From positions 354,024 to 418,023 of the forward strand of contig KL197731.1 in NCBI GenBank assembly GCA_000697665.1: a stretch of DNA of 64,000 bases, written 5' to 3'. Of this stretch, positions 509 through 23,520 are shown piece after piece. Every line of letters begins with the position of its first letter. Position 1 is the first letter of the stretch. The notes under the pieces were generated by a model. It was given only the letters and a program-made list of their open reading frames with translations, had not been told where the DNA came from and did not search any database. Both the position numbers and the translations under genes were made by a program. Source of the DNA: Jaapia argillacea MUCL 33604. Its lineage: Eukaryota > Basidiomycota > Agaricomycetes > Jaapiales > Jaapiaceae.

Positions 509-2144
509 ATGCATACCCTCCTTTCACTCGCACTAGTACTCTCTGCCGCGGGGTTTAGTACCGCCTTGGTCTGGCCGTACGTTGCTTGACTGTACTAGTA
601 GAACCGCAACATCTCATGCTTTTCTCAGATCCTCTTTGTCCCAATGCGTTCCCGTCACTATCGCGTTGAATGGCAGTGAACGTGAGTGGCGGTCTTTCCT
701 GGAGAGCGAATGGGCTGACACAGCTCGTTTCCGAAGCCGGAGGCCCTATGACCGATTTCGTGAGTTTTCAACCCTCGTCACACGCGCCCTTCATCGTCGA
801 CTGATATATTTCCCCCCTAGTAGTACGTCAACAATACCTGCCCCGTAGCGCCAGATTTCGCTGACCTATATTCGAAGCCTCTACTGGTGGCAACTCAACG
901 ACAGCGCTAACCGCTATGGTGGACTCTCCAGTGCCTTTACCAATTCCTTCACTTGGCCCGTAAACATCCCCTCAGGTGAGTCCGATGAAATCCAACATCT
1001 TCTAACCTAACGAATCGTGTAGGCCAAAATTACGTCGTGGAATTCGGAGTAGGCAACACCTCCGCACCCCAATTGACCAGTGGGCCTATTGCCGTCGGCC
1101 CAGGATGTGAGTTGTCTCAGAACTCGAGTTTCCGTTACCCTGACGTTCTCCATATACAGATAACAATTGTACTTTGTGGCCTTCGACGAGCGGCTCACCC
1201 CTGAAGCCTACAGGCACACCGTCGTCTCCATCGCCCACAACACCCTCCCGCGCTCGATCTCACATCGACGCAATAATAGGAGGAGTGGTTGGTGGTGTTG
1301 CCTTCATAATCTTGGCAGTTGCTTTTATGGGCTATATGCGAACTCGTCATCGCAAACACTTGGATAAAGTTACCCGCGATACTCAAGGTAAACCCTCGCT
1401 CGACGATGTGAGCGATTACCCCACCCTCCGACCTGTAGGAAGGGAGATGGAAGAAACCGCCACTGGTGATCGTCTCCATATTTCCATCCCGCGTGGAACG
1501 TCCGTGCGAAACGTGAATCCAACAACGGGGAGGAAGTGGGCAAAGTCGATGTTGAACCTTACTTCTCGAGGAACTTTGTGGACGAATTCTGCTAGGAGCA
1601 ATTCAGGAGTGTATGCGGAGATTGCTGAGGAACAGGTGTCTACGGTTGCTTCTGATCGTGCCACTTGGGCAGGGTCTTCATTACCTTCTGATAATCCTGT
1701 GGTAAACGGGGCTACGCACGATGTATTAGGGTCTTCAGGTGAGATGGCGGAGAGGAACCTCACGGGAGAGGCGAATGTCATCTGTGAAGAGCCGAGGTCT
1801 CCGCGAACGAACATCGTAAGTCTTAACTATCCATCAACCAGTGAAAACTGACCAAACAAACCATTTAGGGCGAAACCATCCCCCAGCGAGGCACCCCCCT
1901 CACCTCTCATACCCCAGATAACAGGAAACCCGCCCGAAGACCTGTAACACAAGTTCCTCAATCCCCACCACAATCTGATCAGCCTGAACCACCAGCTGCG
2001 GGTGAATCACGCGAGACGGAGGCGGAGCTTCGGAGACAGCTGGTAGCTATGCAGGCGCAGATTGAGAGGTTGATTGAGATGCAGGGGTCTAGGACGCAGG
2101 TGGAGGAGCTTGGGGAGGAACCTCCCCCTTCTTATGATGGGTAG
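509..2144 (+). CDS. single-pass membrane protein, receptor-like family with C-terminal PPSY (paralogue A)
   Basis: Proposed exons: 509-576, 629-681, 743-759, 821-822, 878-975, 1023-1106, 1160-1815, 1869-2144. The start gives a signal peptide (MHTLLSLALVLSAAGFSTA). The ectodomain has a CVPVTIALNG segment and a WPVNIPSGQNYVVEFGVGN stretch that recalls the Kre9/Knh1-like fold of fungal surface proteins. A Pro/Ser/Thr-rich stalk follows, then one transmembrane helix (AIIGGVVGGVAFIILAVAF), a basic stop-transfer, a long cytoplasmic tail, a short helical MQAQIERLIEMQ segment and the end EEPPPSYDG. It resembles the three tandem copies at 11.5-19.1 kb in plan and C-terminus but is much more diverged. 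Exons 3-5 are uncertain: one intron 760-846 with an exon from 847 would also keep the frame. Function unknown; a cell-surface sensor or adaptor is an inference. Confidence 0.65.
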
Positions 2145-7382: not shown

Positions 7383-8472
7383 AGTCGGTTTAGGTACGAT
7401 GTCTCCTATCTTTGCCTTTAAATTTATCTGTGTATTCACGATTTCCTGTCGCAGTTAAGAGGGCTCTGTTACGGAACCGATCGCAGGAGATAGTTCATCC
7501 TTGTGCCTCAGGCTTGCTATGTCGGGTTAGGATACTCTCATGCGGCTATGTTAGGACGGTTCAAGTACACCACTCTGGGGCTATAAAAATGGAAGACAAG
7601 CACCGAACCGATCGCCAGGCTGATTGGCATGCACATATATTGGTTCCTGGCACGGTTCTCTCGCTGGTCTCCAGACACATCGAGATCGTGATAAAAGCAG
7701 TGGTTCTTATTTTTGTACCAGCTATCGTACGGTCAGTACACAGCCGTTCCAGAGCGCAACGAGACCTTAAGTTGGTGGAGAGCACAAGGCGTTGCCCGTA
7801 CCGCGCCGGACCCGTTGCAAGCCTGTGTGGCTGACGTCGGAATCGGAGATTGTGTGAATTCGAAAACCAATTGGATGCGAAACCAAATCAAGCCTGCTCC
7901 CGTGCCCCCACCCAACACCCTCGCCCAACACTTTTACCTGTCTATTTCTCTTTCTTCTCCTATTACTGCTTCTTGCTTTCGTGGGCTGTGAATATTGTCA
8001 GGATATCGCATAGCTGTACGTGTGACTCCCCGTTCTTACCCGACAATTCTGACTGGCATGTTGAATGATGATGGCGGGCGGTGAAATAGTGATCAACTAG
8101 TGAGAGCCCCAACACCAACTCGCCTCACCTCATTGTGCCGATTGGAAGACTCAGTATCGCTACCGTATTTCCCTCGTTTGTGGATAAATTGCGGGTAAGT
8201 GTTACGTTTAGATTGGACGAATGGACGTCGGGAAGGGAAGATTATGAATTCTCTTCTTTATTGTAGATTATCTCAAGGTCCTCGTTGCAAACGCTCTTCC
8301 ATCGTCGCTTAGACCCATCATCATCATCGCCCCCAGGTCAGTCCTCGTCGCTCTGAAAACTCTTCTGTTTCTTGCCTTTGTTCCCTGCTTTTTTATTGTG
8401 GCTCTCTGTGCTTAAACAACAGTCAACTCATTCATGATCCCGCTCTTTCTCTTTACGCAGGTGACGTTAACA
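7383..8472. other. intergenic region and probable 5' leader of the FHA/RING gene
   Basis: No supported coding region. A GTAAGT...TTGTAG segment at about 8193-8266 and a pyrimidine tract ending in CAG at 8460, just before the next gene, could be leader introns. Short open frames here have no family features. Confidence 0.35.
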
Positions 8473-10591
8473 ATGGACCCATTCACCCCACACGTCTCAA
8501 ACGAATCACCTCAAGCGAGACATCACATCTTAGGTTCCTTCCTTCGCGGTCGACCTCGAGGCACGTCATCATCTAACCTCCATCTTCAACCTCCCAACCA
8601 ACAACCTCACTCTCCTCGTGAAGATCAACCCCAGTCACCCGTGCCCTCTCCGCCTTCCCCCGGGCCTGGGCATAGAAGAAGTCCGGCAGCTGTTGCAGCT
8701 GGCGGTATACAAGCTTCGGTGTCGCAGAACAGTGGTCAGGTCCAACAGGGACAAACTCAGGCGCAACCACAGGCGCAGTCATCAGGAGGTGCAGCTGCGG
8801 GGCTGGCCCAAATGCTGAGACGAAGACGGTCAGCAGGTGCCCTACCGACGAGCGGTGCCGCTCAAGCTGCATCAGCCACTTCACCCAACCCTAACGGCGC
8901 CACACCCGCTTCTGTCCCAGCCTCAAGCGCCATCCCTCGCTCCAACCTCACACCACCACAAACCGGCACCGCCCAAGGCCATCGCATCCGTTTGGTCCCT
9001 CAAGTAGACACCACCCGCCGTTCCCTCCGATTCGATCCCATATCGCGCGACCTCAAACCTGGTGACTCACCCCTCCGTATCGGACGTTTCACCGATCGTC
9101 TGGGCTTGGGTATCGAAGCTGCCAACGCACTCGGTTCCAACAAATTGGCGTTCAAGAGTAAGGTCGTTTCGAGGAGTCATGCGGAGATTTGGGTTGAGGG
9201 TGGGGGGCGCTGGTGGATTAAGGATACGAAAAGTTCCAGTGGAACTTTTTTGAATCATGTTCGGTTGAGTCCGGCTGGGACGGAGAGTCGGGCGCATGAG
9301 ATTAGGGATGGGGATGTTGTACAGTTGGGTGTAGATTATCAGGGCGGCGCGGAGGATATTTATAAGTGTGTGAAGATGAGGTTGGAGTTGGGGAGGGAGT
9401 GGCAGGCAGGGGCTAATGTTTTCAAGTGAGTGGCGGGTTTCTTGGGTTTTCTTTTGAGTTCTCCTCTCTCTCGGGTCACTGATGGGAGCGTTTTTAGCAC
9501 GAATGCATTGAAGCAACTCAAGGCGTTGGCAATTCCGTCAGTACCTCAAACGCAAGCGCTACAAACTGCAATTGAGAAGGACAAGAAGATAGTCCAGAAG
9601 TCGGGTATGGCGGATTGCTGTATCTGTAAGCTACCATATTCTCTCTCTCGCATAGTCCACCCTGCTTACTGGCTATATGCTTCGTTTGCTAGGTTTGTTC
9701 GCGGTTACCCTACACCAAGCCCTATTTATCGCGCCTTGCTCGCACTGTTACCACTTCAAATGCATTCGACCCCTCATCGAAGCCAACCACCCGTCCTTCT
9801 CTTGTCCCATCTGCCGAACTTACGCTGATCTCGAGGACGACGTAGAGGTTGAGGTGGAGTACGATGCCCAGAGCGTTTCGGAGGATGCTGATATGGTGGA
9901 GGGTCCCGAGGCAGAGTTACCACCCGTCGCCATTGTCGCCGCCGCTCTGGAGCAGAAAGAGAGGGAGAGGGAACGAGTGAGAGAGGGGAGGGAGAGGGGA
10001 GATAGGGAGATGAATGCTCTGAATGCTGGAGCTGAGACCGAGGTTGAGGCTGAGCCAAGTGGGAGTCGAGGGATTGGGATGGGTATGCCTAGTAGAAGTC
10101 GGAACCCTTTCATGAATGGTGGATTTGGGATGGGGATTGGGAGAAGTGTGACGATGACGAATGGGGAGCCAAGTAATTTGGTGGACCTTACTGGTGGTGA
10201 TCATGAGGCTCTGGGTGCGGAGGCTTTCCATCATTTTAATGGGAGTGAGCCTGCGTTGCCACCTTTGCCTGAGGGTGAGGATGATGGAGAGGGAGATGAT
10301 GTGGATGCGTTGATGGTGGTACATGATGGAGAGAGGGATTTACCAATGTCGGTGTCGAGGGAGAATTCGCCTTCGCCTGATTTTGGGACTGGGGGAAGTG
10401 GGGGTGGGCATGGGGAGGGTAGCGCAGAGGCTATGATGAGGGGAATCAGTTTGGGTGTGAGAGGGAGGGAGGGGAGTGAGGAAGGAAGTGCGGATGGGTT
10501 GATTGTGGGTCCTATAGATGGAGTGGGGAGTGGGTCTGAGCAGGGCGTTGGCGCTGGTGAGGAGGGGAGGAACTCGAAGAGGAAGAGATAG
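8473..10591 (+). CDS. dma1: FHA plus RING-H2 E3 ubiquitin ligase, Dma1/Dma2 type
   Basis: Three exons: 8473 to about 9428, about 9500-9627, and about 9695-10591. A disordered Gln/Ser/Pro-rich N-terminus of about 170 residues is followed by an FHA domain with RIGRFTDR, KSKVVSRSHAEIW and IKDTKSSSGTFLNHVRLSP, the phosphothreonine-binding loops. A RING-H2 finger follows, split by an intron inside its first cysteine cluster: CCIC-LFAV...APCSHCYHFKCIRP...FSCPICR. This order is that of S. pombe Dma1, yeast Dma1/2 and animal CHFR/RNF8, which link phosphoprotein recognition to ubiquitination in mitotic checkpoint, septin and spindle-position control. The tail after the RING is long, acidic and low in complexity and ends in a basic SKRKR. 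All zinc ligands of the C3-H2-C3 pattern are visible, so the ligase should be active. Confidence 0.92.
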
Positions 10592-11551: not shown

Positions 11552-13201
11552 ATGATGAGGCGCTCCTCGCTTTTCCTGACCTCTATCCTACCGTTGGCCG
11601 TGTATTGCCAGTCACCGATGGCGGTGAATACCCCGTAGTATGTGCCTTCCCCCGAAACAATCCCACATTTCAAGGTTCAAGCTCACCCTTCCGTCAGCCT
11701 CCCTATCATAGAATGCGAGCCTTTCTTCGTGGCTTGGTCGGGTGGAATTCGTGGGTGTCGTCCGAGTCCTCTTCCTGTGTGACCAGGCATCTCATCCACA
11801 ATTTCGGCATTCAGCACCCTATCTTATAGTAAGCGTTGTATTCCGACTGTTTTGACTATCGGTTGAGCGTAACTGTTTTGCAGACGTACGTCCCTCAAGT
11901 TTGGATTTGGATTCTCGCCGTTCAACTGCTCTCCCGTCGAAGCGTACACCTTACAGATCCTTGTCCCCCTGTCCCTGGTGATTGCATTATCGCTGCAGTT
12001 TTTTCGAATAATACATCTGGGACATGGATGGCCGCAGTGCCTCCAGGTACGATGCTACCCACACAACATATCTCCGATTCCAACGCTCTCACTGACCAGG
12101 TTACCACATTAGGCTATAAGATCGCGTTCTGTGTTCAGGACTCTTCAACTACAAATTACGCGTGTACCGGTATCTTAGTTGTCGACCCAAATTGTGAGTT
12201 GCGCAGCCCATATACCATCCACAATTTTATGACCCTCCACACTCCCAGCATTCGCCACTTGCCTACCTTCTACCATTACTACCGTTCCCATCCCCTCAGC
12301 AACGAATACATCATCTCCGTCCGATAGTGGCAACATACCAGCAACGACTTCTCCCACACACCACTCCTCTTCATCCCATAATAGCAACATCGGTCCTATC
12401 GTTGGTGGTATCATCGGTGGGCTGTTCCTCATCGCTGTACTTGGGATACTCCTCTTCCTCTGGTGGCGTCGCCGAAGTCATAGTCTCATGGAGCAAGTCA
12501 CTGTGTCTGATAGCCACAGGACGGTGTCGCTTGATGACTCTCCTCCGCCGACTTCCGCCCCGATAGCTTCCTCTCCTGCGAGAGGGATGATTGAGATTGA
12601 GAGAGAAGATCCTCTGGTTGCTAGTAGTTATCCTTCTCACCCAATCTCTCGCATGGCGAGTTCCCCTTCATCGAGTGGATTTGATGGACCAGAGTCGTCA
12701 TCGAGTACATCGTACCCAAGTGTGATGCAATCATTCCACATTACCAATCAGGCTGAAGCGACAGGTTCGATGGGCCGAACGGAGAACGTACGCGAACCCA
12801 CATATTTTGACCCTTAATGCACGGCCTGACGTACTGATACTCCCGAGCAGCTTCCCGTCAACACCACTGTCGAATCCGTTGCTAACGCACCACCTCAAGT
12901 TCCCCAACTATCAGTCAAACGACAAGAGCTATCCCGCCAAGTCCTTGAAATGCAAGGCGCAGTCGCTGCTCTCCAACAAGCTCGCGTTAGCACATCTACT
13001 CCTCAACCAGACGACACACCCATGGCCAGCACCTCAGCATCGGTGGTTTCTCCTTCACTTGGTCCATCGGCGGAAGAAAATCTTCGAAGTCAGATTACGG
13101 TTATGCAGGCGCAGATTGAGAGGATGAATATGGAGATGCAGAGGATGAGTTCTAGGCAGCAGGAGATATTGGATGAGCCTCCGCCGTCATATGATGATTA
13201 G
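11552..13201 (+). CDS. single-pass membrane protein, tandem family copy 1 (E)
   Basis: Proposed exons 11552-11634, 11698-11750, 11815-11828, 11884-11885, 11943-12048, 12113-12193, 12300-12787, 12851-13201, about 390 residues. It has a signal peptide (LFLTSILPLAVYCQ), an ectodomain with CEPFFVAWSGGIPPYLI, LTDPCPPVPGDC and TWMAAVP..GYKIAFCVQDSS, a Ser/Thr stalk, and a transmembrane helix IVGGIIGGLFLIAVLGILLF followed by LWWRRRSHSLMEQV. The Ser-rich tail is followed by a coiled coil (VKRQELSRQVLEMQGAVAAL), a second helical MQAQIERMNMEMQRM, and the end LDEPPPSYDD containing PPSY. The family is not one I can name; the W-GG-PPY opening suggests an Ig-like fungal surface domain. PPSY fits WW-domain binding by an Rsp5-type ligase (inference). 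In this copy intron 11886-11942 is 57 bp with no stop in frame, so its retention would also give an open frame. Confidence 0.7.
11884..11885 (+). other. proposed 2-nt micro-exon (copy E)
   Basis: AC lies between a 55-bp intron (11829-11883, GTAAGC...TTGCAG) and a 57-bp intron (11886-11942, GTACGT...GTCGAAG). It restores the frame between the PPYLI exon and the TDPCP exon. The equivalent dinucleotide is present in copies F and G. Confidence 0.45.
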
Positions 13202-13789: not shown

Positions 13790-15379
13790 ATGAGATGCTC
13801 GGCGCTTTTCCTTGCCTCATTGCTGCCTTTGGCGGTGTATTGCCAGTTACAGTTGCAGATGAACCCCTCGTATGTGCCTTCCATTGAATTTCGAGGTTCA
13901 AGCTCACCGTTGTGCTAGTCCTTATATCGCAGAATGTCAACCTGTCTTGGTCTCTTGGGTGGGTGGAATTCGTAAGTGTCGCCCTCTTCCTGTCTGTCCA
14001 AATCTCTGATCCTCAAATTCGGCATCCAGCCCCCTATACCGTAGTGCGTGTTCTATCCCAAATTTTCTGGGCATCAGCTGAACGTAATTGTTTCCTAGTC
14101 GTATGTCCCTCGATTTTGGATCTGAATCCTCACGGCTCAACAACACTCCTGTCATAGTGTATGGGTCGTAGATCCTTGTCCTAGTAGTTGCTCTATTGCC
14201 GTGGGTTCTTCGAGCAATACATCTTGGACATGGATAGCCTTAGCTTCTTCGGGTAAGATGCTATCCGCATTACCTTTCTCCTTCTCCTTGACCGACTCTC
14301 TACATTAGGCACTAAGATCCAGTTCTGCGTTTCGGACTCTTCAAATCCCTTCACGTGTAATGATGCTGTCATTGTCCAAACGAGTGGTGAGTTCCATAAA
14401 CACACATGCCTTGCGTAATATGTGACCTTCCCAGCAAACACCGCCTGCTTATCTTATGCCTCCACTACTGTTCCCTTCCCCTCATCATCTCCGTCTGATA
14501 GTGCCGACATACCAACACCGACTTCTCCCACACACCACTCCTCTTCAACCCATCATAGCAGTATCGGTCCTATCGTTGGCGGTATCGTTGGTGGTCTGGT
14601 CCTCACCGTTATCCTCGGAATCCTCTTCTTCCTCTGGTGGCGTCGCCGAAGTCATAGTCTCATGGAGCAAGTCACCATATCCGACAGTCACAGGACTGTG
14701 TCGCTTGATGACTCTCCTTCGCCGAGTTCCGCTGCAATAGTTTCCTCTGCCTTCAGAGGGATGATCGAGATCGAAAGGGAAGATCCTCCGGTTGGCAGTC
14801 GTTATCCTTCTCATCCCATCTCTCGGATAGCGAGTTCCCCTTCATCGAGTGGATTTGATGGACCAGAGTCGTCATCGAGTACATCGTACCCAAGTGCGAT
14901 GCAATCATTCCACATTACCAATCAGGGTGAAGCGATAGGCTCGATGAGCCGAACGGAGAATGTACGCGAACCCACATATTTTGACCCTATCCACGGTCTG
15001 AAGTCCTGATACTCTCGAGCAGCTTCCCGTCAACACCACTGTCGAACCCGTTGCTAACGCACCACCTCCAGTTTCCCAGCTATATGTCAAACGACAAGAA
15101 CTATCACGCCAAGTCCTCGAAATGCAAGGTGCAGTCGCTGCTCTCCACCAAGCTCACGCTAGCACATCTACTCCTCAACCAGACAATGCGCCCGTGGCTA
15201 GCGCCTCAGGCACGGCGGTTTCTCCTGCATTTGCTCCTGGGACAGAAGAAAGTCTTCGAAATCAGATTACGGTTATACAGGCGCAGGTTGAGAGGATGAA
15301 CATGGAGATGCAGAGCCTGAGGATGAGCTCTAGGCAGCAGGAGATGTTGGATGAGCCTCCGCCGTCGTATGATGGTTAG
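13790..15379 (+). CDS. single-pass membrane protein, tandem family copy 2 (F)
   Basis: Proposed exons 13790-13869, 13919-13971, 14030-14043, 14099-14100, 14158-14252, 14309-14386, 14435-14961, 15023-15379. The signal peptide is MRCSALFLASLLPLAVYCQ. Ectodomain landmarks are CQPVLVSWVGGIPPYTV, WVVDPCPSSCSIAV, SWTWIALASSGTKIQFC and VSDSSNPFTC. The helix IVGGIVGGLVLTVILGILFF is followed by LWWRRRSHSLMEQV. The tail carries SSSGFDGPESSSSTSYPS, a coiled coil and the end EPPPSYDG. It is the closest relative of E: about 95 bp encoding the tail is almost identical. Here the intron after the micro-exon contains a stop in frame, so both flanking introns must be removed. The apparent tail VREPTYFDPIHGLKS read past 14961 is intronic: splicing to 15023 restores the coiled coil and PPSY end shared by all copies. 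Confidence 0.7.
14099..14100 (+). other. proposed 2-nt micro-exon (copy F)
   Basis: TC is flanked by introns 14044-14098 (GTGCGT...TCCTAG) and 14101-14157 (GTATGT...TCATAG). Skipping it, or reading through either intron, brings stop codons into frame before the conserved DPCP segment. Confidence 0.55.
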
Positions 15380-15478: not shown

Positions 15479-15486
15479 TATGTACG
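15479..15486 (+). repeat. target-site duplication, left copy
   Basis: TATGTACG directly precedes the element and is repeated exactly at its right end (16918-16925). Confidence 0.75.
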
Positions 15487-16917
15487 AGGACCCCCGACTA
15501 TCCCTCCAAATGCCTGGTACCGGATCCCCCTAGCACGTCCGGACATGAAAGTGGGTGACGGTGTCCGGACGTAGGATAGGCATCAAGGGGATGGTGGACT
15601 TTGTCCGGATCCATACCAGGCATACCAAAAATTCTAAAAAATTCGCCTACGGCGAGTCTGTACTTCTATTTCCTCTCCTCCATCGTCGTTCGGCGCCTTA
15701 CAACGGACGAAATATATTTCTAGTCCTCTTCATCCATCTCACCATCGGTCCTTCCCCCATCCTTTTCGTCGGTGCAGCGTGAGAGCCTTCCATACGTCTT
15801 GCTTCAAAAATAAGGCCGACGAACTTGATTGCCCACAAAGAGATGCGTAATTGAAGTACTGAGTGAAGAAAAGGACTGGACAAGTTTGCATGCTTGAATC
15901 ACCAAGTAGGCAGTGACAGTTATGTTGACGAGTCGGACAACCAACTGTGCTTGCCAAGCTTCACACCCGTTCTTGATAGACGCCGAGAACTATGTTTGGC
16001 CAAGAGAGATGGTTAGTTCATACCCCGTTAGCGAGTCAAGGATACAAACCCGAATCATGAGTTTCTCGTCGATAAAAACAAAGCCGCACCCATGACCCGA
16101 CCAATCCTCATTGGCGAAGTTCAAAGATGCAAAAGAGTAGAGATTCGCGCCTGATTTAATTCTCAGAATCGAGCATCCTCAAAGCAGTCTTTCTCGGGGC
16201 CAAAAGCTAGGACAATTCTGAGTAAGCAGCTAGAAGAGGTGCAACCGAACACACCTTTTTGGTTTGCACGGTCGCGACTTCAGTGGCGTTCAAGGCATTA
16301 CCAGCCGGAATGGCATCGTGTTGACCATCTCTGCACCAGTTCCAACACCTGGTAGGCGTCCTGAGCCCGAAACGCCGTGACCATAGCCGTTCCGTTGGTT
16401 GGCCCATCTCGGATCCGGGCATCATGTTGCAGGGGGAGAGGGCCTGGTGGTGCTGTTGCGGGATTGTGGTTGCATCTTTACGTTACTGAACGAGCTCGGC
16501 TGGGATTTCCAACGCATTATTGGTCGCTAGGAAAGCCTGAAAGATGGGGTGATATTCGGCCCAGGACAGAGGAGACATGACTGATGTTGGGAAGCTATTG
16601 TGTGTTGGTGAACACCGAAATCGACAGGTTCGCATTGGGTATGCGCAAAAAGGTATCCGAGCGATGTTCGTCTGCATAAAGCAACACAATTCAGTGTTAC
16701 GACAACGGCTTACAGCCACATTGATGAGATCGACGAGACCCCCCGTCCGGATAGCACCAGGCCCCAAGACCGGTGGGACCTGCCATGTCCGTCACAACCC
16801 CAGGCGTTGGGGGCCGATTTCCCCTATTGGCGTCCGTACACGACCAGGCCTCCCTCTCCGGGGGTCGGTTTGGTGTCCGGACCGATACCAGGCATTTGGA
16901 GGGATTGTCGGGGTCCT
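15487..16917. mobile_element. non-autonomous inverted-repeat DNA transposon, 1,431 bp
   Basis: The ends are inverted repeats of about 40 bp: the left begins AGGACCCCCGACTATCCC and continues with TCCAAATGCCTGGTA; the right end, read on the other strand, begins AGGACCCCGACAATCCC with the same continuation. Exact 8-bp duplications (TATGTACG) flank it. GTCCGGAC motifs recur inside the ends. No open frame resembles a transposase, so it would depend on a helper elsewhere. An 8-bp duplication is typical of hAT elements but the terminal bases are not, so the superfamily is open. It interrupts the spacer between F and G, and the sequence on either side resumes homology with the E-F spacer, so insertion came after the duplication. 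Confidence 0.8.
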
Positions 16918-16925
16918 TATGTACG
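16918..16925 (+). repeat. target-site duplication, right copy
   Basis: Exact repeat of TATGTACG found at 15479-15486. Confidence 0.75.
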
Positions 16926-17406: not shown

Positions 17407-19061
17407 ATGAGATGCTTGACGCTTTTCCTTGCCTCGTTGCTACCTTTGGTAGTATATTGTCAGTCGCCATTAGTGGTGGACACACCGTATGTTCCTTTAC
17501 TAAAGAATTCACACCGTTTTCCATGTCTGAGCCGACTTTCTCCGACAGTGTCTCCATAACACAATGCCAACCCGTCTTGATCACCTGGTCGGGTGGTATT
17601 TGCAAGTAGTATTCTGGTCCTGAAAATTCAGCCTTCTGACTGTTCACGTCGATATATAGCTCCTTATGTCGCAGTAAGTATTGTCTTGAATTCCTTTGGC
17701 ATTCGTTGAAAGTAACGCCCTCATAGTCGTACGTGTTCCTTGAAATTCGATTTGAATCGCCACCATTGAACTAGATAACTTTCGAAGGGTATGGGTTACA
17801 GATCCTTGCCCCACTGGTAGTTGCGCCATTGCTGTGACCTCGACAACTACCACCTCTTGGACATGGATGGCTGTGGCCTACTCAGGTTTGGCACTCTTCA
17901 TATATGATCTCGCCCCTTCCGAATGTTTGACAATATCAACACCGTAGGCGGGAAGATTCAGTTCTGTGTTTCAGATTCCTCTACGACAAATCCTTTAACA
18001 TGCAGCAGTATTTTATCCGTCTATCCCAGTGGTACGCCCTACGTTGCTCTGCCTCTGTCCAGTTATCATATCCATCCCCGTTTAACATCCTCTCAGCAAA
18101 CACTACTTGTCTATCTTCTAACATCACGAGCGTCCCCGTCCCCTTACCAACTATAATACCAAATCCCACCACGACTTCCGATACTGGTGACGCCCCATCA
18201 TCCACCTCCACCACACATCACTCCTCTTCATCTAATCACACCAGCATCGGTCCGATCATTGGTGGTATCGTTGGTGGTCTCGTCTTCATCGCCGTCCTTG
18301 GAATCCTCTTCTTCCTCTGGTGGCGTCGCCGAAGTCATAGTCTCATGGAAAAAGTCACCGTATCCGATAGTCACAGGACGATGTCGCTTGATGACTCCCC
18401 CCGGCACAGTTTCACTCCGATAGCGTCCCCTGCTGCGGGAGTGATGTCTGAGATCGAAAGGGAAGATCCTCTGGTTGGTAGTAGCTACCCTTCTCACCCA
18501 AGCTCTCACATGGCGGTCTCCCCTTCGTCGAGTGGATTTGACCGACAAGAGTCGTCATCAAGTACTTCGCACCCAAGTGTGATGCAACCATTCCACATTA
18601 GCAATCAGGGTGAAGCGACAGGTTCAATGGGTCGAACGAATAACGTACGTGAACCCACGTATTTTGACCCTTAGTGCGCAACCTGATCAGCCGACACTCT
18701 CTAACAGAATCCCCACATTACCGCTATCGAATCGATGACCTCTGCATCTCCTCAAGTTTCCCAACTATCCGAGAAACGACAAGAGCTATCTCGTCAAGTC
18801 CTCGAAATGCAAGGCGTAGTCGCTGCTCTCCAACACGCTCACGCCGGCACATCTACACCTCCATCAGACAATACGCCAGTGGCTAGCACGTCAGGATCGG
18901 CGGCCACTCCTTCAGCCGCTCCCGCGACGGAGGAAAGTGGTCTAAGATCTCAGATTACGGTTATGCAGGCACAGATTGAGAGGATGAACATGGAGATGCA
19001 GAGGATGAGTTCGAGGCAGCAGGAGATGTTGGATGAGCCTCCGCCGTCGTATAATGATTAG
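17407..19061 (+). CDS. single-pass membrane protein, tandem family copy 3 (G)
   Basis: Proposed exons 17407-17486, 17549-17601, 17660-17673, 17727-17728, 17788-17885, 17948-18031, 18097-18644, 18708-19061. The signal peptide is MRCLTLFLASLLPLVVYCQ. Ectodomain landmarks are CQPVLITWSGGISPYVA, WVTDPCPTGSCAIAV, SWTWMAVAYSG, KIQFCVSDSSTTNPLTC. The helix IIGGIVGGLVFIAVLGILFF is followed by LWWRRRSHSLMEKV, then the Ser-rich tail, the coiled coil LSEKRQELSRQVLEMQGVVA and the end LDEPPPSYND. The second intron (17602-17659) appears to use a GC donor, GCAAGT. The 2-nt exon at 17727-17728 is needed to keep frame. Function unknown; plasma-membrane location with the PPSY tail in the cytoplasm is inferred from topology. 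Confidence 0.7.
17602..17659 (+). other. probable GC-AG intron in copy G
   Basis: The aligned exons of E and F end ...GGAATTC|GT; in G the same place reads GGTATTT|GCAAGT and the acceptor is TATATAG. GCAAGT is the standard strong form of the rare GC donor. Confidence 0.6.
17727..17728 (+). other. proposed 2-nt micro-exon (copy G)
   Basis: TC between introns 17674-17726 (GTAAGT...CTCATAG) and 17729-17787 (GTACGT...TTCGAAG). It is required to join the SPYVA exon to the WVTDPCP exon in frame; the second intron contains a stop in frame. Confidence 0.55.
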
Positions 19062-19299: not shown

Positions 19300-20400
19300 A
19301 GTTGTTGGGTTGCGTCACCGCCAACCAGCGACTTTCATGTGAAACTCATCCCTTGCAGTATAAGAACCTGAGTCCCTGGATTGCATTCCATTATCCCTCT
19401 TTTCTTCCCGCCTCATCCTCTCTGAGTTCACATTTGTTTTTGCGTTGTTCAGACGCAATGGGATCTAAGCACGAAACCGCCCGGATTCGCGGACACCGTC
19501 ATCTTACGAGGTGGCGGCTTGGACGAAGCGATACGGATACTCGGCGTAATGGGCGATCCCACAAGGAGACAGTGATGGCTCCCATTCCTAGTTTGATATC
19601 TCCCTTCTGTGTTCACAGCCGTCTTCGTGTTGTTCAGACGCGACGGGAACTAAACACGAAACCGCCCGGACTCACAGACACCATCATCTTATGAGGTGGT
19701 GGCTTGGACGAAGTGATACGGATACTCGGCGTAGTGGGCGACCCTGCACAGACGGCCATGGCTCTCCTTCCCAGTTTGATCTGGTGGCTTTCTCCCGCTT
19801 CTTTCCTCTGGGTTCACAGTTGTCTGCGTGCTCCTCAGGCGCGACGGGATCAAAACACGAAACCGCCCGGATTCACAGACACCGTCATTTTACGAGGTCG
19901 CGGCTTGGAGGAAGTGATACGGATACTCGGTGTAGTGGGCGACCTTGCGAGCAGACAGCGATGGTTCCCATTCCTGATCGCGTTTTGGTCTCTGTCTATT
20001 TCGCTGGCTTCATGGATCCCCTCTCCGGTTTGCTCTGGTCGTATCTCTTTTGTCTAGATTGCTGGTTTTCTCCCTTTGATATGTGCGACGTTCACACCCA
20101 AAGCTACCCCAATTTGTAGGACACACTATCGTACGAAGTGATGTGGGTCTCGGGGCTGCCTGTTGACGGTGCGATCGTCGGTGGTGAGTCCATCCCTTCC
20201 TGGAGCCGAGATATGATTTTCTCATACCGAGTCCCTTGATCGAATAGGACTGCGAGGTCTTGTTCGGTCGGTGAGTTTATTCATCCTATAGGGTTTTCTC
20301 CCTTATTAACTTGGGCTCGCCCCACTATATATATACAGTATCTTGGGCTTCGTCGCCCTGCCTGGCGGTGAGTAAATGCTTTTCGTGACGATGGCCTGCC
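19300..20400 (+). repeat. tandem-repeat locus R1, possible undescribed gene
   Basis: A TATA box (CAGTATAAGAAC, about 19357) is followed by three direct repeats of 185-200 bp, each centred on CACGAAACCGCCCGG (about 19473, 19658, 19857) and running into a GATACGGATACTCGG block. In one frame the units read KPPGFADTVILRGGGLDEAI then RILGV.GD, and the third continues RQRWFPFLI. The locus ends with blocks punctuated by GGTGAGT. A second locus, R2 (22.3-23.5 kb), has the same promoter-like start, a related repeat unit and the same ending. The protein reading is broken between units, so this is either a multi-exon gene with repeated exons, a non-coding unit or a decayed repeat. I do not recognise it. 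Confidence 0.5.
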
Positions 20401-20426
20401 AGGGGAGTCCGACGTCAGAAGGAAAT

Positions 20427-20495
20427 ATGGAGATGCAGAGAGTGACTTCGAGGCGGCATGGGATTTTGGATGAGCCTCCGCCGTTGTATAATGAC
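20427..20495 (+). pseudogene. relic of a fifth membrane-protein copy (C-terminal end only)
   Basis: The translation reads MEMQRVTSRRHGILDEPPP then LYND, plainly the last 23 residues of the E/F/G family (MEMQRMSSRQQEMLDEPPP then SYND). The final stop is gone and PPSY has become PPLY, which still fits PPxY. No upstream part of the gene is present; locus R1 lies where it would have been. Confidence 0.75.
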
Positions 20496-22309: not shown

Positions 22310-23520
22310 TCTTTCACTCAGGGGTTTCGTTGAATCTGCCAGCCGCCGACTTTCATGTGATACTGAATCCTGGCAGTATAAGAACTTGGGAATGTCAACC
22401 TCATGGCAGTATCTCTCCTTTCCTCTTCCCTTAAGGCCAACCGCCAGCTTGTGCCATTTAAAGTTGTCTCTGCGTTCAATCTTGGACGCGGCGGGGGCAT
22501 ACCTGAAGCCGCCCGGAGTTGCGGACCCGCCATGCCTGAGGTGGCGGAGGATGAAGTGATGCGGATATTCGGTCTACTGGACGACCTCGTAACTGGACAA
22601 CCATGGCTACCCTTGCTGGTTTTTTCGATAGCTATTCTTTGCTATGTTTATCTTCGGTGAGTCCATATTTGTCTCCGTGTCCTTTGGATGCGGCGGGGGC
22701 ATACCTGAAGCCGCCCAGAGTTGCGGACCTGCCATGCCTGAGGTGGCAGAGGATGAAGTGATGCGGATATTCGGTCTACTGGACGACCCCGTAACCAGAC
22801 AGCCATGGCTCCCCTTGTTAGTCTCATTGATTATTACTTTCTTTCTTATGTTCTCTGGCGAGTCTAGAGTTGTCTCCGTGTCCTTCAAGTGGATGCGGCG
22901 GGGGCATACCTGAAGCCGCCCACAGTGCAGACCTGTCACCCTCGTTGACGGAGGATGAAGTGCTGTGGATATTCGGTCTACTGGACGGCCCTGTAATCAG
23001 ACAACCATAGCTTCCTGTCTTGGCTTTTCCGATTGCTGCGTCCTTCTCCGGTGAGATCATCATTGTCTCCGTGTCCTCTGGACGCGGCGGGAGCATACCT
23101 GAAGCCGCCCAGAGTTGCGGACCCTTCATGCCTGAGGTGGCGGAGGATGAAGTGATGCGGATATTCGGTCTACTGGACGATCCCGTAACCAGACAAAGAT
23201 GGTCCACTACTATTTGCTTTCTTCTCCGCCCTGATTCCACCTCCTTCCGCGTACATCAGAGCTCGCTCTCCCCCACCATCAGTGATTGGGAAGTTTCGTG
23301 GTGAGTCTGTGCGACTTCCTCGACGAGTTGTGAATTACTTATACCGATTTCTTCGCTGAACAAAATCGTGGATTTTGTTCAGTCGGTGAGTTGACCAGTC
23401 CTCCCGAATTTCGTATCTTGCTAACTCGGGACTTCCACCCTATATATGTTGCAGGCTGTCGAGTCTACTATGTCCTTTCGACGGTGAGTAGAAACTCGCG
23501 TTTAGCCTGCATTCGACACT
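22310..23520 (+). repeat. tandem-repeat locus R2, related to R1
   Basis: A start like that of R1 (CGACTTTCATGTGATACTGA, then CAGTATAAGAAC at about 22374) is followed by four direct repeats of roughly 190 bp beginning near 22490, 22690, 22890 and 23080. Three units share an open frame reading PEVAEDEVMRIFGLLDD then PVTRQPWLPLLV, followed by a hydrophobic run; the third is more diverged. DEV.RI.G...D...RQ.W.P.L is also the pattern of the R1 repeat. The end (23300-23500) repeats the GGTGAGT-punctuated blocks and TATATATGTTGCAG seen at the end of R1. No known family recognised; coding status unproven. Confidence 0.5.

Follow-up and report, generated by a model that had tools for sequence, protein, structure and literature searches.

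The window, a stretch of 64,000 nt from the basidiomycete Jaapia argillacea MUCL 33604, harbors four intact paralogues of a secreted or transmembrane type, here called A, E, F and G, whose gene models were built by hand from homology between the copies. All four lie on the forward strand: A at 509..2144 (417 aa), E at 11552..13201 (392 aa), F at 13790..15379 (401 aa) and G at 17407..19061 (410 aa). Each gene comprises eight exons without an internal stop, the phases of all seven introns agree, and exon 2 measures 53 nt in every copy. The encoded proteins consist of a small ectodomain, a single transmembrane segment, which in F begins IGPIVGGIVGGL, then basic residues and a tail with PPPSY and two further residues at its end; in our judgement, the N-terminal start of each protein resembles a signal peptide. 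Protein identity to F amounts to 72% for E, 68% for G and 27% for A. The Pfam transmembrane-segment model PF21314 matched all four members (F with 27.2 bits, the cut-off being 27.1), the other Pfam matches were weak, and no Rfam match reached the gathering score. The last introns of E, F and G (12788-12850, 14962-15022 and 18645-18707) lead into a stop when read through (TAA, TGA and TAG, respectively), so that the last exon, of about 118 residues, escapes plain ORF calls.

Searches of the organism's own genome (43.7 Mb, 95 contigs) with protein and DNA pieces, whose counts are lower bounds, revealed at least A, E, F, G and a truncated sister of A; the remaining matches covered the transmembrane or tail stretch only. 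The sorting of the latter took in L007-L013, L015, L041 and L042, which by eye were assigned to other families, and left out L043 and L044. The truncated sister of A lies at 1041 to about 2030 of locus L039 (contig 23, about 345640-346630), 7-8 kb upstream of the window, and is devoid of ectodomain exons. It is followed at L039 3396-4346 by a copy of the gene found at 8416-9429 of the window, and a segment of several kb has therefore probably been duplicated in tandem. Within the window, positions 20424-20494 hold a last-exon fragment of the family, 87% identical to G and probably the remnant of a further copy. Between F and G, at about 15486-16918, an element with inverted ends (GAGGACCCCCGACTATCCCTCCAAATGCCTGGTA...) and ATGTAC adjoining both of them looks like the insertion of a DNA transposon. 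Two direct-repeat arrays with units of about 190-200 bp are located at 19420-19975 and 22437-23229.

In all four gene models, exon 4 consists of two nucleotides flanked by GT-AG introns of 53-61 nt. In copy F, exon 3 (14030..14043, 14 nt, PPYTV) is followed by intron 3 (14044..14098, 55 nt, GTGCGT...TAG), the dinucleotide TC at 14099..14100, intron 4 (14101..14157, 57 nt, GTATGT...TAG) and exon 5 (14158..14252, VWVVDPCP...); the dinucleotide leads from phase 0 to phase 2 and completes a Ser codon. Copy G has exon 3 at 17660..17673 (14 nt, SPYVA), intron 3 at 17674..17726 (53 nt), TC at 17727..17728, again completing a Ser codon, intron 4 at 17729..17787 (59 nt, GTACGT...CGAAG) and exon 5 from 17788. 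The corresponding features of E are exon 3 at 11815..11828 (14 nt, PPYLI), intron 3 at 11829..11883 (55 nt), AC at 11884..11885, which completes a Thr codon, and intron 4 at 11886..11942 (57 nt). In A they are exon 3 at 743..759 (17 nt; an alternative of 23 nt from 737 has equal phase and a slightly higher score), intron 3 at 760..820 (61 nt), TA at 821..822, completing a Tyr codon, and intron 4 at 823..877 (55 nt, GTACGT...CGAAG). The predicted spliced junctions including the dinucleotide read PPYTVSVWVVDP in F, SPYVASVWVTDP in G and PPYLITVHLTDP in E. In the neighboring exon-2 border of G, intron 2 (17602..17659) is of the GC-AG type with the donor GCAAGT, as opposed to the GT donors of E (GTGGGT) and F (GTAAGT).

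This arrangement, its frame and phase and the residue pattern are directly established. The dinucleotide falls well within the size limit for micro-exons (<=15 nt), complete canonical sites stand on both sides of it, and its position, length and phase are conserved in the four of four copies having ectodomain exons, with varying letters (TA, AC, TC, TC). The low identity of A to F (27%) shows that the arrangement goes far back in the family. Among the close duplicates E, F and G, introns 3 and 4 (58-74% identity) resemble one another about as much as exons 3 and 5 do (57-73%); these three copies are therefore not independent witnesses and count as about one lineage. At least two well-separated lineages, A on the one side and E, F and G on the other, thus appear to carry the 2-nt exon, and the comparison between them is the meaningful one for its conservation. 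As introns and exons are about equally similar, DNA similarity as such is of little informative value, and frame and synonymous bias carry the argument.

Splice sites were scored on the basis of 20 introns of A, E, F and G outside the test set. The donors of intron 4 are strong in four of four copies (GTACGT three times, GTATGT once). For the intron-4 acceptors of A, E and G, all of them AAG, the scores of 0.7-1.4 fall at the low extreme of the 20 control introns, whose minimum is 0.8. Of the eight introns flanking the dinucleotide, three contain a strict YTRAY branch motif, compared with 14 of the 20 control introns. Intron 4 of A, E and G (823-877, 11886-11942, 17729-17787) ends in TCGAAG, though the intron body of A differs.

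Skipping exon 4 alone leads to a stop in all four copies, as does retention of intron 4 in A, F and G, the frame staying open in E. Intron retention was enumerated and rejected as an explanation. Both effects, as well as the weak intron-4 acceptors, would suit a real but regulated micro-exon, the skipping or retention of which breaks the frame and turns the protein off. Such regulation would be a refinement compatible with a genuine coding exon, and we regard it as unlikely; the 1-nt exon of Arabidopsis has been called constitutive (PMC4674806).

To compare all ways of joining exon 2 to exon 5, chains with at most three GT/GC-AG introns, each 40-140 nt long, were enumerated. The numbers of chains tried, open, and keeping three conserved peptide blocks were 646, 117 and 8 for A, 1120, 151 and 8 for E, 670, 95 and 3 for F, and 290, 24 and 1 for G. 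The single block-keeping chain of G uses the dinucleotide, and the block-keeping chain with the highest summed score contains it in A, E, F and G, summed scores favouring chains with more introns. The preliminary description, which had reported the TC exon of F and G between canonical introns of 53-59 bp and its counterparts in the two paralogues, was exact in its coordinates, and its reading of a 2-nt exon at one place and phase in four copies is supported. Its statement that other splicings of F and G reach stops holds for the block-keeping chains of G, and was too strict for F, in which two further chains of the 670 are open through a GC donor at 14046; the frame-keeping alternatives that it had assigned to E and A were recovered as open chains. 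Chains with higher sums than the gene model exist in A, F and G, and all of them still contain the dinucleotide. Acceptors internal to exon 5 (F 14188; G 17821; A 905 and 932) raise the sums but lose conserved residues; a further variant starts exon 3 of A six bases earlier, and one chain of G additionally shifts the end of exon 2.

An uninterrupted length marker is provided by a related protein family. The pattern GGxPPY gave 38 matches in the own genome, against 25 for the reversed control, and among the 36 matches examined nine represent one family (L057, L075 and L082-L088 on contigs 3, 18, 45 and 56; seven of the nine in tandem on contigs 45 and 56). At all nine loci found, the frame runs on without a break across the sites at which introns 2 to 4 lie in E, F and G. 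The relatives read GGTPPYGVTVA, GGKPPYNISLA, GGTPPYSVTIA, GGLPPYTVSIV, GGSPPYSLSFV, GGIPPYEVTVA and near-copies of these, following the motif GGxPPYx[VIL][ST] with S or T three residues after the Tyr in nine of nine. With the dinucleotide included, E reads PPYLITV, F PPYTVSV and G SPYVASV, which places S or T at the same site. E and F match the motif, while in G the first P is replaced by S and the aliphatic residue by A. Seven of the nine loci were aligned. Against a profile of the relatives, no other reading tried scored as high as that with the dinucleotide in F (17.3) and E (16.1); for G it reached 6.5, versus 7.0 and 6.6 for versions with a retained intron, so that the profile does not tell these readings apart. 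A profile-profile comparison assigned 93.4% probability to a match of 22 columns whose end lies directly behind the motif, both profiles being small. Copy A matched neither profile nor motif, and the support for its dinucleotide therefore comes from gene structure only.

The enumeration also defines what would be needed if there were no micro-exon and each copy restored the frame in its own way. In F, both block-keeping chains without the dinucleotide need the GC donor GCGTGT at 14046; one such route, with an exon 3 of 16 nt and a single intron of 112 nt, is open and keeps the motif length (PPYTVVV), although the score of this donor, 3.3, is below the 7.5 of the GT donor lying two bases upstream. 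A retained intron 4 adds 19 codons to the open frame of E, and in A an acceptor at 848 yields an open chain with nine extra residues. Judged per intron, these routes compete in part: the model with the dinucleotide trails in A (11.7 or 12.2, versus 14.7 without), ties in E (12.3 each), leads in F (12.7 versus 10.7) and leads slightly in G (9.7 versus 9.3 for a chain losing exon 3). By summed score, which favours more introns, the best routes including the dinucleotide exceed the best ones lacking it by 7 to 16. Against separate routes stand, furthermore, the lack of any block-keeping one in G, the fact that none of the open alternatives of F, E and A is common to another copy, and the size of the inserts, that of E lying inside a motif which is unbroken in the relatives. 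We therefore consider this explanation distinctly improbable.

The frame itself is under selection, as in exons 2-5 of F and G pN is 0.21 and pS 0.61 (corrected ratio 0.19); the F-G ratio of the transmembrane part and tail is 0.34. For exons 2-5, the ratio is 0.36 between E and G and 0.70 between E and F, and comparisons with A are largely saturated (G-A 0.52). The E-F value, the truncated sister of A and the turnover of tandem copies at this locus are what one might expect of pseudogenes or poorly spliced relics in which the dinucleotide is functionless, but four genes that stay open across eight exons and 392-417 aa, together with the low F-G ratios, make such decay very unlikely. Least credible of all is a stwintron or ratchet site, at which introns would be excised in nested fashion or stepwise without any residual nucleotide: adjacent short introns removed consecutively are typical of fungal stwintrons (PMC9024468), but each donor and each acceptor is already complete, the enumeration, at the thresholds applied, gave no nested or zero-length-exon solution with an open frame in A, E or G, and of the ten open solutions of F the eight listed all depend on the weak GC donor, at the cost of conserved residues. 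Accordingly, an intron splitting a splice element of another was rejected for A, E and G, and recursive splicing for the AG-NN-GT present in four of four copies, no zero-length solution occurring among those listed.

Shuffles of the interval from exon 3 to exon 5 (dinucleotide-preserving, both introns >=45 nt, 4000 per copy) give an estimate of how easily such a structure arises. A 2-nt exon whose sites equalled or exceeded the observed ones in strength arose in 0, 1, 0 and 0 of 4000 shuffles for A, E, F and G, respectively, and any AG-NN-GT in 231, 246, 94 and 198. Any frame-restoring exon of 2-20 nt, counted at a donor score >=2.5 and an acceptor score >=0.5, was found in 142, 131, 37 and 90 of 4000. 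A 2-nt exon with sites of the observed strength is more than chance. No common RNA fold was seen in the exon 3-5 stretch (z 1.5, -0.4, -1.5 and 1.2).

Hence, the dinucleotide is very probably a genuine coding micro-exon, the fourth of eight, whose flanking introns would be excised in turn by intron definition. We infer that the copies are transcribed, that the dinucleotide is included and in which order the introns leave. Short introns favour pairing across the intron, and both short flanking introns would be recognised in this way. The footprint of U1 spans -3 to +6. At a 2-nt exon, the U1 site reaches back into the G of the upstream AG, so that the exon cannot hold the 3′ splice-site complex and U1 together; introns 3 and 4 would consequently not be recognised simultaneously and would leave one after the other, each excision joining the dinucleotide to a neighboring exon of normal kind. 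Our guess is that intron 3 is removed first, as it has the better acceptor in three copies (A, E and G, F being the exception), and as joining to exon 3 gives A or C at -3 of the intron-4 donor, which is closer to the usual donor consensus. Together with the first base of exon 5, the dinucleotide would encode the Ser or Thr of [PS]PYx[VIA][ST]V in E, F and G and a Tyr in A, and selection may keep the length of the exon at 2 (modulo 3) rather than its sequence.

This mechanism can be extended to an old exon that is free of sequence information, fixed at two nucleotides and preserved across gene duplications down to 27% protein identity, its letters unconstrained and its splicing strictly sequential and intron-defined, perhaps acting as a checkpoint at which a failed step gives a frameshifted and discarded message. 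We hold this extension to be rather doubtful. If true, the paralogues would form a natural series in which the fungal spliceosome needs no exonic information to keep an exon.

Ultra-small exons as such are a known, if rare, kind, and with 2 nt neither a size record nor a new category is at hand. The view of the preliminary description that successive exons of 14 and 2 nt are at the lower limit of the spliceosome does not stand up to 1-nt exons with transcript evidence (PMC4674806, PMC12940212). What the present genes add is a 2-nt exon with fixed length and phase and variable letters in deeply diverged paralogues of a fungal membrane-protein family. Among the matches listed in the literature on micro-exons in fungi, basidiomycetes and Agaricomycetes and on stwintrons, no title or opening of an abstract reported a 1- or 2-nt exon in this family, and in the passages checked a Cryptococcus study names micro-exons only as a mapping setting (PMC3990503). 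If borne out by reads, the genes would contribute a fungal 2-nt exon from outside the P450s and a natural test of the role of exon sequence in the inclusion of ultra-small exons in intron-defined genomes.

Several systems lend themselves to comparison. The stwintrons of Hypoxylaceae likewise involve two neighboring fungal introns excised consecutively, as is proposed here, but they leave no exon in between, whereas in the present genes two complete introns flank two coding nucleotides (PMC9024468). In Arabidopsis APC11, a single-nucleotide exon was experimentally proven with transcript evidence, and Guo and Liu proposed intron definition and stepwise removal for it; when its A was changed to TT, the resulting exon of 2 nt was correctly spliced in Arabidopsis, though not in rice (PMC4674806). 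Both exons are too small for exon definition, yet APC11 is a proven plant case within an interval of 422 nt (PMC4674806). A close fungal parallel is Fusarium CYP621A, in which a single-nucleotide exon was confirmed by SRA reads and whose authors cite exons of 2-5 nt in Arabidopsis, Drosophila and human (PMC12940212). There, as in A, E, F and G, an ultra-small exon joins out-of-phase exons inside a conserved motif, and an intronless relative serves as length marker (PMC12940212). The differences are that CYP621A has 1 nt with an identical candidate, AGGGT, in the genes listed, all ascomycete P450 orthologues (PMC12940212), and that the present exon, deduced from genomic DNA, comprises 2 nt whose letters vary between paralogues of a membrane family. 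Finally, the 1-nt micro-exons of plant APC11 and VPS55 are conserved across land plants, as established by RNA-seq and RT-PCR, and share with our genes the conserved splice sites, the intronless relatives and having been missed by annotation (PMC8831610). Because standard aligners and gene finders tend to miss such exons (PMC8831610; PMC12940212), annotation pipelines may truncate or frameshift members of the A/E/F/G family as well.
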